Below are positions 17,496 through 21,717 of a stretch of DNA of 64,000 bases, piece by piece. The notes under the pieces were generated by a model. That model saw only the letters and a list, made by a program, of their open reading frames with translations. It ran no database searches and was not told the origin of the DNA. Origin of the DNA: Fimbriimonadaceae bacterium (GTDB taxonomy: Bacteria > Armatimonadota > Fimbriimonadia > Fimbriimonadales > Fimbriimonadaceae). The position numbers and the translations under genes were made by a program. The stretch lies in contig CP075365.1 in NCBI GenBank assembly GCA_019454125.1, positions 1,668,218 through 1,732,217 of the forward strand. The letters are read 5' to 3'. Every line of letters begins with the position of its first letter. Position 1 is the first letter of the stretch.

Positions 17496-17529
17496 CATGC
17501 CTCGGCACGCCCCGTGCCGCGGCTACTCC
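17496..17529 (+). repeat. REP-like palindrome overlapping the gspE stop codon
   Basis: ATGCCTCGGCACGCCCCGTG followed by CCGCGGCTACT: an inverted repeat of C-T-C-G-G-C-A-C-G type, nearly identical to the palindromes flanking the transposase remnant at 47.6-47.95 kb. It spans the TAG of gspE (17523-17525), so it contributes the last codons or the terminator of that gene. Confidence 0.75.
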
Positions 17530-18788
17530 AGTGCCTGCGTATACACGGCCTTCACGACCTCGTCCGGCGTCGTCACGCCTGCGAGCACCTTCTGCTTCCC
17601 GTCCTCGAGCATGGTGCGGAAGCCTTGCTTGCGCACCGTCTCCATGAACTCCGCGTAGCCGGCGTTGCGGGCCACGGCTTCTTTCACCTCGCGGTTGGCG
17701 ACCATGAGTTCGAAGACTCCGACTCGGCCTTTAAAGCCGGTGCCGCGGCAGTTCTCGCAGCCGGCGCCTTTAAGCAGCCGTGCCCCGGCCATGTCGGAGG
17801 GGCCGATTCCGATGGCGGTGAGCTCCTCCTTCGAGTAGGGGTGGGGGGCGCTGCACTTGGGGCAGTTCGTGCGGACGAGGCGCTGGGCCATGATCGCCAC
17901 GAGCACGCCCGCGATGAGGTACGGCTCGGCGTTCATGTCCACCATGCGCCCGACCGACTCGATCGCGTTGTTGGTGTGCAGGGTGCTGAGCACCAAGTGG
18001 CCGGTGAGGCCGGCCTGGATGCCGATGGCGAGCGACTCGGGGTCGCGCATCTCGCCGACCATCATGACGTCCGGGTCCTGGCGCAGGAACGAGCGCATCA
18101 CCCGCGGGAAGCCGACCTTCTCGGTCACCTGCACCTGGGCGATGTTGTGGTCGAACTCGTACTCGACGGGGTCTTCGACCGTGACGATATTGCGCTTGCG
18201 GCTGTCGAGCTGGTTGAGGCTGGCGTAGAGGGTGGACGTCTTGCCGCTGCCGGTAGGGCCGGTGACGAGGATAAGGCCGTAGGGGACTTGGATCACCTGG
18301 CGCCATTTCGCCTCGACGTCCGGCGGCATGCCGAGCGCGGAGAGCTCGACCTTCATCGACTGCGGGTCGAGGAGGCGCATGACGAACTTCTCGCCGTTGA
18401 GGCAGGGCACGCAGCTGGCGCGGGCACTGAGGCGGCGGCCGTCGTTCTCCATGTCGATGCGGCCGTCCTGGGGCTCGCGGGTCTCGTCGATGCGCATGCC
18501 GGCGGCGAGCTTGAGGCGGGCGAGCACGTTGGCGGCCTGCTCAGGGGGCAGGAAGCCGGTCTCGGTGAGCACGCCGTCCTGGCGGAAGCGGATCTTGAGC
18601 TGGTCGCGCTCGGGCTGCAGGTGGATGTCGCTGGTCTTGCTCTCCAGCGCCTGCATCATGATGTTGTCGACGATGCCGACGGCGAGCGACATCTCGTTCC
18701 CGCCCATCTCGCGCGTCTGGCCCGACTCGCGGAGGATGAGGCGGAACTTCTTAGCCGCCCCCCAGTTCCCTTGCTCTTGCACGCTCAT
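17523..18788 (-). CDS. GspE/PilB-type secretion or pilus assembly ATPase
   Basis: This 421-residue hexameric ATPase powers type II secretion or type IV pilus extension. Visible features are S-D-I-H-L-Q-P in the N2 domain (53-59), Walker A G-P-T-G-S-G-K-T-S-T (177-186), the Asp box E-D-P-V-E-Y (205-210), Walker B G-E-M-R-D (245-249), the His box L-S-T-L-H-T-N (268-274), and four zinc-binding Cys (309, 312, 344, 347). The long N1 domain of classical GspE/PilB is missing and replaced by about 35 residues, so it may use a different platform contact. The start is ATG 18788. No platform or prepilin peptidase gene is near. A decayed partial copy lies at 21.5-21.7 kb. Confidence 0.92.
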   Translation of the reverse strand: MSVQEQGNWGAAKKFRLILRESGQTREMGGNEMSLAVGIVDNIMMQALESKTSDIHLQPERDQLKIRFRQDGVLTETGFLPPEQAANVLARLKLAAGMRIDETREPQDGRIDMENDGRRLSARASCVPCLNGEKFVMRLLDPQSMKVELSALGMPPDVEAKWRQVIQVPYGLILVTGPTGSGKTSTLYASLNQLDSRKRNIVTVEDPVEYEFDHNIAQVQVTEKVGFPRVMRSFLRQDPDVMMVGEMRDPESLAIGIQAGLTGHLVLSTLHTNNAIESVGRMVDMNAEPYLIAGVLVAIMAQRLVRTNCPKCSAPHPYSKEELTAIGIGPSDMAGARLLKGAGCENCRGTGFKGRVGVFELMVANREVKEAVARNAGYAEFMETVRKQGFRTMLEDGKQKVLAGVTTPDEVVKAVYTQALE

Positions 18789-18869: not shown

Positions 18870-18935
18870 ACCTGTGGCAAAAATCTTTCATCGCAGGCTT
18901 GACTTTAGACCCACTGTCACGGTAAAAGCCTGGGC

Positions 18936-20935
18936 ATGATCGCTCTGTTCGCTGCCGTTCTGATGTTGGCGCCCCCCCCCCCCCAGCGTATCTTGAGTCT
19001 GTGCAGCTAGCGCAGGACTTTGTGATCGGTTCGACTCAGACGGTCGGCACAGTGGTGATGAGCCAGAACGTGGGCTCGGCCACGGTCGTCCAATTGGAGA
19101 CGACAGACGGTTCAGTCACGACGCCGCCGACTGTGACGGTGCCGAATGGCCAGAAGACCGCTACCTTCACGGTGACTGTCGATAACCCAGGCGGCCCGGT
19201 CGTGGCCCAGGTCATCGCCCACACCCCGGGTTACAGCCAAAGGGCGAAGATGGCCGCAGTCTCTGCGCAAGGAGACCTTGCCATCACGGCATTGGAGGCG
19301 CGGTCTGGAAAGGGGGGAGTGTGGCTAGGCTGGACAGGATTCCCTGAAGACGTCTACGGCAAGACGCTACCCGGCTACAAGATACTGAGGAAGCAAGGCA
19401 CGGGCCAGTTCTTACAAGTGGGCAAGGTGACCGACACCGCCCAGTTCGTGGACACGACTGCCGCCGAGAACACTGCGTACACTTACAAGGTCGAGCTACG
19501 CAATGCGGGAGGGACGCTCCTCGCGGCCTCTCCAGAAAGGACCGTCACGAAGACAGGGGGCGGTGCCACGATCAACTGGCCCCCAACCGGCGGTACGACC
19601 TGGAGCGGCACGAAGACCGTGCTCCTCGCCAACCCGGACCCGAGCCAAGAGCATTACGACGTTTACGTCAACGACCGCCTCTACGGAACGGCGTCCGCCA
19701 CCGAGTCGAACGGCGGCTCCTCACAGACTATCCGCCTCGACCTCGACACCACGCAACTGGCCAATAGCGTCGATATGAGCGGAGGCGAGCTCAATCGGCT
19801 CCTCGTCGGCGGTGGGACGTACAAGATCGTGCTGTCGTCGACCGACGAGCAGACGGCCCTGCACTCCAGCCCGCCGCTCTACTTTAACGTGTCGAACGAA
19901 CTGTCCTCAGTCTCGAACGACGGCGTATGTCAGACGGGCGGCAGCGAGTACGGCGCGATCCAGGGCACGTTCCGAGAGGCGGGAACGACGACGATCCAAC
20001 TTCAGAGTCAAGCCGGGCAGACGCTTAGGACATGGACGTTCGACGACCGCCGCTTCGCGATAGTCTGGGACGGCAAGGATAGCCAAAACAATGCGGTCGG
20101 GGATGGAAGCTATAAGTGGAGAATAGAGGGCACTGGCGGTGGAGGCACCTTCTTCTACCGCATTGTCAAGGTCGGGCAAAGTCCCCAATTCCTTTCCATC
20201 ATCAACTATCCAGCCAACGAACCGCTAAGGAGTGAAGGGATAGCTTATGCCTCCCGAGTCGCCGCGTACCTTCAACAAATGAGTCAGACGACGACCAGCT
20301 TTAGCTGGCTAGTATACACCTTGTCTGAGAATGAAACAGTTAGCCGAACCATGGTTCAAAAGATATGCAAATGGATTCGATTTAGCTGCGACTTCTTTCA
20401 CCTCGATGGTCACGGTTACCGAGCAACCGAAGGGCAAACAGAAAGCACGGCCAAGATCGGAGCCAACGTATACGTACGTAATTTTGGATCGGCTGTGAAA
20501 GGCTGGAGCTTTATTACAGTTCCATATTGGACTCAGGGCCGCCAGTACAGGTTTGCGTGGTTGGACACCTGCCACTCTGGAGGATGCAACAAGAGTGGTG
20601 TGCCGGCTGATCCCTGGCAGACCTTTATGACTCGACAGCCGCACGACCGATGGGCAGATGCTTTCAACATTGACCGAGAGATTTTCGAGGGTGCCTTCCT
20701 CGGGTTTAACGGACAAGTGTCATTCAATGGACCAAGCGGGCCCGCGAAGTCCTACCGTGATTGGCGAGACTTTTTCTGGCAGGCGCTTGCAAATGGCTTG
20801 ACGTTCCGAGAAGCTCTAACCCGTGCGGATCAGCGACTGGTTGGTAATGCGCCTCAACCTAATCCTCGGTCAATCTGGGTTTACCAGCAGAGCCAGTTCC
20901 CCAAACGAGTCACAAGTGGGGAGTATAAGTGGTGA
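18936..20935 (+). CDS. Secreted caspase-like protein with Ig-like domains; reading frame broken at a 13-C run
   Basis: ATG 18936 starts a good signal peptide (I-A-L-F-A-A-V-L-M-L-A-P-P) that enters 13 consecutive C at 18972-18984 and then hits a stop at 19008. With 11 or 14 C it would join the long frame ending at 20935. The mature part has a Calx-beta/big-type domain (to about 19250), an fibronectin III-like domain (19260-19550) and an FlgD-like Ig domain (19960-20160). The C-terminal part has D-G-H-G-Y (His codon 20411) and W-L-D-T-C-H-S-G-G (Cys codon 20570), the His/Cys dyad of caspase/C25-like peptidases. The peptidase call is inferred from these motifs. From about 20.17 kb the base composition is clearly lower in GC. 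Confidence 0.65.
18972..18984 (+). repeat. Homopolymer run of 13 C at the signal-peptide junction
   Basis: Thirteen consecutive C. The upstream signal-peptide frame and the downstream 640-residue frame differ by one base across this run. It is either a phase-variable switch or an assembly/sequencing miscount. Confidence 0.85.
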
Positions 20936-21459
20936 GGGGCTTAGTAGTCACTTGTTGCTTTCTGATCCTTTGTGCGGGATGCACTGGCAGCGTTCAGCAC
21001 GAAGGAGACAAGAGCCCTGCTGCGCCGCGCTTGATCGCTAACGATGACGTAAGATCACTTGCCACAAAGATTGCCCTTCAAAAGCCAGATCAATGCACGA
21101 TTCATTTCACAGTTGGGCTGGGAAGAAATTGGGAGGAGGGCTTTGCTGAGCGCACAGATACGGGTTCCGATGTGTCAGGCATTCGCCACATAATACAAGA
21201 TCGGATTGTGATCGAAGCAGTACTGGTCGCCCTGGGCAAGAGCGCAAGGACTATCAAAGTCGCACAGTCTCCGCTAGCTAATTATACAAAAGAGCCTCAC
21301 GACCGACTCGTCTTTAGCCGCTTAAAAGAAGAGATCGCAACTGTCCCATTTCAAGTCGAACAACTAAGAGATCATTGGGGCGCAGATTTAGCTAACCTCA
21401 TCGAACCATTGTACAATCGAGAAACGAAGGCGTCCCAATCGAAAGAAGGTCCTAAGTGA
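20932..21459 (+). CDS. Putative small lipoprotein paired with the caspase-like protein
   Basis: A 175-residue protein starting at GTG 20932, whose first bases overlap the TGA of the caspase-like gene (GTGA), so translation is coupled; GTG 20929 is an alternative. The N-terminus L-V-V-T-C-C-F-L-I-L-C-A-G-C-T-G is a lipoprotein-type signal, though the residue at -3 of the lipobox is Cys. The rest (T-V-G-L-G-R-N-W-E-E-G, then long helices) matches no family I know. Its G+C is far below that of the flanks, as in the end of the preceding gene, which suggests joint acquisition. A role as inhibitor, substrate or anchor of the peptidase-like partner is speculation. Confidence 0.65.
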   Translation: MRGLVVTCCFLILCAGCTGSVQHEGDKSPAAPRLIANDDVRSLATKIALQKPDQCTIHFTVGLGRNWEEGFAERTDTGSDVSGIRHIIQDRIVIEAVLVALGKSARTIKVAQSPLANYTKEPHDRLVFSRLKEEIATVPFQVEQLRDHWGADLANLIEPLYNRETKASQSKEGPK

Positions 21460-21492
21460 TTGCGCACCCGCCGTGCTCTAGACACTGATTGC

Positions 21493-21717
21493 GGGTAGCT
21501 CGACCTTCATCGACGGGGGGGCGAGCAGTCGCATGACGAACTTCTCGCCGTTCAGGCAGGGCACGCAGCTGGCGCGGGCGGGGGATCTCCACCCCCTGGC
21601 CCCCTATTCAGATGGCAGGGACATCCATCCGAGGAGGAAGAAGGCCGTCTCCATGTCGATGCGGCCGTCCTGGGGCTCGCGGGTCTCGTCGATCCGCATG
21701 CCCGCGGCGAGCTTGTC
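21493..21717 (-). pseudogene. Decayed fragment of a gspE/pilB gene carrying inserted repeats
   Basis: 21496-21580 and 21642-21714 match the intact gspE segments around 18343-18425 and 18437-18512 with few mismatches and in the same orientation; the minus strand still reads K-L-A-A-G-M-R-I-D-E-T-R-E-P-Q-D-G-R-I-D-M-E. The two blocks are separated by a 61-base insert (21581-21641), and the fragment stops where a palindromic element begins at 21715. Neither end of the gene is present and the frame is broken, so it is a relic of a duplicated or paralogous copy. Confidence 0.85.
21581..21641 (+). repeat. Insert in the gspE relic, diverged relative of the palindromic element
   Basis: It begins GATCTCCACCCCCTGGCCCC and ends CATCCATCCGAGGAGG, following the order of motifs in the long elements (CTCCACCCC, CAG, CATCC, GAGGAGG) but with many changes. 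It replaces about 11 bases of the gspE sequence. Confidence 0.5.

Follow-up and report, generated by a model that had tools for sequence, protein, structure and literature searches.

A 13-C run in the leader of a caspase-like gene as a candidate phase-variation tract in a Fimbriimonadaceae bacterium

Is a run of 13 C that parts a signal-peptide-like leader from the long frame of a caspase-like protein an on/off switch, or an accident of sequencing or of gene decay? The gene lies in the genome of a Fimbriimonadaceae bacterium (Armatimonadota), assembled as one contig of 2,652,248 bases with 63.8% GC. The window, namely the whole stretch of 64,000 nucleotides that was analysed, spans contig positions G000:C1:1668218-1732217, and its coordinates are used for the caspase-like locus (Table 1). 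Judged from the sequences, the C13 run is quite likely to be a contingency (phase-variation) tract, one of a set of C/G tracts placed in leaders in this genome and in that of a congener.

The C13 tract and the gene behind it

The run consists of exactly 13 C, as the first-pass annotation had claimed, and no other homopolymer of at least 8 occurs in the window. The frame that opens at the ATG at 18936 reads MIALFAAVLMLAPPPPQRILSLCS and ends at a TAG (19008-19010), so that the predicted product at 13 C is a 24-residue peptide only. Open from 18926, behind the nearest upstream stop at 18923-18925, the long frame extends to the TGA at 20933-20935 and has no ATG, GTG or TTG ahead of a GTG at 19001; therefore, the leader is out of phase with the body of 649 codons, and the break between signal peptide and main frame that had been reported is confirmed. 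When tract lengths from 6 to 17 were simulated, leader and body were joined only at 8, 11, 14 and 17 C (3n+2), and the earlier statement that 11 or 14 C would restore the frame is arithmetically correct. At the simulated lengths, unit insertions or deletions in the tract would switch translation of a downstream frame that is intact, with neither an internal stop nor a second frameshift.

Table 1. Positions of the features of the caspase-like locus (window coordinates), and leader tracts of the genome (contig coordinates) and of the congener
Feature	Position	Strand	Evidence
PilT/T2SSE-type ATPase, divergent upstream neighbour, intact	17523..18788	-	PF00437, E 7e-116; 93% identical in congener
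Hydrophobic leader MIALFAAVLMLA, signal-peptide-like, no Lys/Arg	18936..18971	+	Sequence; hydrophobicity 3.02 over 10 residues
Short 24-codon frame, off state at 13 C	18936..19010	+	Sequence, simulated lengths
C13 homopolymer, proposed slippage switch	18972..18984	+	Sequence; frames joined at 8, 11, 14 or 17 C; passes mechanical test
Caspase-like protein body, 649 codons + stop, out of phase with leader	18986..20935	+	N-terminal domain matches relatives; C-terminal part matches distant homologues
FlgD-Ig-like domain	19940..20140	+	PF13860, 26.2 bits (just under the cut-off of 27); FlgD structures matched by profile, E 1.3e-6
Candidate catalytic dyad, His of GHG (20411-20413) to Cys of DxC (20570-20572)	20411..20572	+	Invariant in four homologues
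Overlapping downstream frame, lipobox-like start (LCAGC), possible operon partner	20929..21459	+	Open reading frame
Decayed pilT-like gene copy (5' part), far side of cassette	21491..21715	-	88-91% nucleotide identity; 81% protein identity, two stops
Leader tract G12, MKTTLTRSLFALSLFA-Gly-AAFAQ	G000:C1 275657		Passes mechanical test
Leader tracts G9, MHKTKTLCVLLSILT-Gly-VQAQS	G000:C1 664507 and 758538		Pass mechanical test
Sixth leader tract, G9, just ahead of hydrophobic core	G000:C1 1414834		Classed by eye
Leader tract G10, MTWAALNAVAGLTAMLA-Gly	G000:C1 1937958	-	Passes mechanical test
Congener leader tract G11, off, MKHTKTTLRLALAALAVC-Gly-EALAQ	L226		
Congener leader tract C11, off, MTRIT-Pro-RLILCAIVVVALVAPVLAQ	L239		
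Congener leader tract G13, on, MKSTRALIVCATALL-GGGG-VRAQ	L242		

From about residue 3 on, the body has matches at up to 33-44% identity in relatives, where the matching domains belong to large proteins, and its last part has distant protein matches only (best E 4e-20 among 291 genomes of the phylum). The protein is named caspase-like because this C-terminal part keeps the GHG and DxC motifs, which, as in clan CD (caspase-like) peptidases, are invariant across the four homologues compared here; it differs from these peptidases in that the catalytic part has no match in Pfam or the PDB. A Pfam search of the body lists only FlgD_ig at E values up to 1, and no curated C14 or clan CD model, for which reason the label C14 is not used. 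The earlier name thus stands on conserved motifs, but no Pfam match lies behind it. A single-sequence structure model of the C-terminal part is of low confidence (mean pLDDT 38.8), and a search of plasmids for the caspase-like part gave no match.

The leader had been described as a perfect export signal, which is too strong, because it contains neither Lys nor Arg and the Pro codons that follow it in the frame of ATG 18936 would fall around the cleavage region, where no clear cleavage site is seen; a hydrophobic leader and a plausible signal are what stand. The features bearing on secretion are this leader and the Ig-like domains, yet the leader is devoid of Lys and Arg; export of the body through the joined leader would be plausible. 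No match to the leader flanks was found in viral contigs, and no sigma-70 consensus promoter was found.

The caspase-like gene and the frame that overlaps its end, which has no family match, form a two-gene cassette flanked by the intact pilT-like gene and its decayed 5' copy, an arrangement that suggests insertion with duplication. In the second half of the cassette the GC content drops to 50-54%. Given this lowered GC and its place between the pilT-like gene and the decayed copy, the cassette was probably acquired.

Long C/G runs in leaders of the genome and its congener

The contig was surveyed in 20-kb stretches and every C/G run was tested. Up to a length of 5-6, each added base lowers the run count about fourfold; a dip at 7 is followed by a flat tail. 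The C13 run is the longest internal one; extrapolation of the run-length decay predicts 0.002-0.07 runs of at least 13 genome-wide, and one is observed internally. It also exceeds the threshold of at least 9 used for phase-variable G/C tracts in Neisseria (PMC5953494). Runs of C13, C18 and C31 also occur in degenerate repeats at the contig ends (G000:C1:365-414 and 2652204-2652234), which are probably the low-quality ends of a linear assembly, and they were left out of the counts as unreliable. The 16 internal runs of at least 9 compare with 3-18 by extrapolation, depending on the decay ratio; because of this dependence the raw count was dropped as an argument, and it is therefore the position of the runs that counts.

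Position was assessed with a mechanical leader test, which asks for an ATG no more than 75 nt ahead of the run, a joined N-terminus that is hydrophobic, and a frame of 900 nt or longer that starts near the run. The test was passed by 109 of 11,926 runs of length 4, 27 of 2,935 of length 5, none of 672 of length 6-8, and five of the 16 of at least 9. Compared with the 136 passes among 15,533 runs of 4-8, the five of 16 give a Fisher p of 2.3e-7 (8e-6 once one member of a duplicate pair is dropped), values that are descriptive, since the pattern had already been noticed on the same genome when the test was drawn up. Two further long runs lie at gene starts, one upstream of a small secreted protein (1432591) and the other, in frame, at the N-terminus of an Nramp transporter (878879), and the rest fall in intergenic repeats or gene interiors. 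Among shorter runs, paired C8 runs (G000:C1:102612, 241102, 414595 and 1821688) occur in a dispersed GC-rich, NPPLSFGGTIIPQNR-like repeat, which is found in frame inside several genes.

The genes at 664507 and 758538 are identical over 1,089 bases, tract included, beyond which they diverge; a recent duplication or a gene conversion would fit this. Each leader has a pair of ATGs that differ in frame: with the tract at G9, a start at the ATG whose AGGA is better spaced leaves the gene off, and a start at the other (MTPCTKRRLCASFSVFLLGGGVQAQ) leaves it on. These paralogues (G000:C1:664319-665407 and the 758538 copy on the minus strand) lie 94 kb apart and differ in their C-termini, and recombination-based antigenic variation beside the tract is possible.

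The design recurs in a second species, where both off and on copies occur. In the congener (G001, 20 contigs), 22 C/G runs of at least 9 were counted, three of them in leaders; a fourth candidate, L241, was dropped, having no clear start codon upstream. An alignment scan of the collection returned a single match, the congener locus JALHNM010000001.1 (Fimbriimonadaceae bacterium Bin_61_3), which is identical to L226, its 11 G included; in all likelihood the two are one assembly, so no independent support comes from it. Seven of the nine leader-tract proteins (275657, 664507, 758538, 1414834, L226, L239 and L242) belong to one divergent family linked by BLAST at 22-71% identity, with no match in Pfam, NCBIfam or the PDB, so that the leaders have kept their tracts although the proteins share little identity. 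No tract is present in a close paralogue of 1414834 (84.6% identity). In all nine genes the downstream frame is intact, and the tracts measure 9-13 with mixed phases; off copies are in the majority, in a proportion not clearly different from random phase. Behind tract-bearing genes of the family lies a second gene for a secreted protein, without a tract, at G000:C1:275671/277062 and 1414844/1416387 and at L246:2476/3988, apparently a recurrent two-gene module.

Across 85 genomes of the bacterial family, C/G runs of at least 9 number from 0 to 39 per genome; G025, G027, G012, G023 and G169 carry 21-39 each, and some relatives none. In a comparison that is rough because reversal gives the control another base order, a start-plus-G-run pattern gave 15 hits against 6 in the control, four of the 15 in this genus, and a start-plus-C-run pattern 8 against 9. 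A family-wide leader design is unsupported by these figures, and as the evidence stands, this genus is the only one in which the design is clear.

Proposed slipped-strand switching and its alternatives

The pattern favours slipped-strand phase variation over a chance run or a general assembly error. The proposed model is that slipped-strand mispairing during replication would make the C run gain or lose C, that at lengths of 3n+2 the leader would be translated into the body to give an extracytoplasmic caspase-like protein, and that at other lengths, among them the 13 C of the assembly, translation would stop after a short peptide. The benefit would lie in mixed populations with varied secreted or surface proteins. 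Slippage in living cells, its reversibility, export and this benefit are what we infer. Loss of mismatch repair as the cause is ruled out by the presence of MutS and MutL in the genome; for the same reason slippage need not be fast, and a high rate is not to be assumed.

The first-pass proposal of a candidate phase-variable switch is strengthened by the concentration of long runs in leaders and by their recurrence in the sister species, once in the on state, and the word candidate is kept with regard to length variation itself. By its sequence context, the C13 gene is probably one of several genes switched by slipping repeats. On balance, the genus would seem to have a multi-locus phasome, in which leader poly-G/C tracts switch the divergent secreted-protein family, the caspase-like protein and others.

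The first alternative is an error in the consensus, by which the tract, in truth fixed at 11 or 14 C in a gene that is simply on, was miscounted. Long-read consensus has difficulty with long homopolymers, C13 is the longest in the interior, and the runs at the contig ends are dubious, yet this explanation is unlikely. Were homopolymer indels common, broken frames should be more frequent at runs of 6-8 inside genes than at runs of 4. No such increase is seen over lengths 4 to 8 (apparent breaks against in-frame cases: 155/3,728 at 4, 29/842 at 5, 6/187 at 6, 1/20 at 7 and 0/2 at 8); the numbers at 7-8 are small, and the count at 13 is not certified by this result. The sequencing error that the first-pass annotation had raised is weakened by this flat course, a miscount at C13 alone being the form in which it may still hold; such a miscount would put this copy in another phase, but the tract would be present all the same. 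A consensus error also leaves unexplained both the placement of long runs in leaders and the matching design in a separately assembled congener, and it does not conflict with a real switch of which only the length was reported wrongly.

It could also be argued that the gene is dead, a one-off slip having produced a stable frameshift followed by decay, with no reversible switching. The gene is indeed off as assembled and sits in an acquired, lower-GC cassette beside a decayed pilT copy, but the uninterrupted body, a tract long enough to revert and the equally intact state of the other leader-tract genes make this very unlikely. Least probable of all is slippage of RNA polymerase or the ribosome at the C run, which long homopolymers can promote and with which the sequence is compatible: it would yield a fixed fraction of full-length protein from unchanged DNA, and needs no change in DNA length, yet the members of the set differ in length with mixed phases.

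Known systems and meaning for the lineage

Slipped-strand switching, the reading preferred for C13, is a mechanism already well known. Its closest working model would be gonococcal pilC, which is turned on and off by frameshifts in G tracts in the signal-peptide region (PMC5354566). As proposed here, frameshifts in a homopolymer within the signal-peptide coding region of pilC1/pilC2 of Neisseria gonorrhoeae switch a secreted protein (PMC5354566); the likeness is in the switch only, since protein and organism are unrelated, the tract is of C here and of G there, and switching has been shown experimentally in pilC, whereas for the caspase-like gene it is proposed. No Pfam or NCBIfam match pointed to homology with PilC/PilY1.

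With respect to number, the 16 internal C/G runs counted here come close to the PhasomeIt survey of Neisseria, which, with a G/C threshold of 9, gives each N. meningitidis or N. gonorrhoeae genome about 15-18 poly-G tracts (PMC5953494). The present set differs in that only about half of the runs lie at gene starts, in environmental Armatimonadota and with one genome per species. In the literature searched, which left most subscription journals outside, no multi-locus set in Armatimonadota was found, nor was phase variation mentioned together with Armatimonadota or Armatimonadetes. The leader-tract set belongs to an uncultured lineage known from metagenomes, so that it is testable with existing reads, and it would suggest that non-immune pressures, such as phages, predators or biofilm neighbours, can select switches of this kind.
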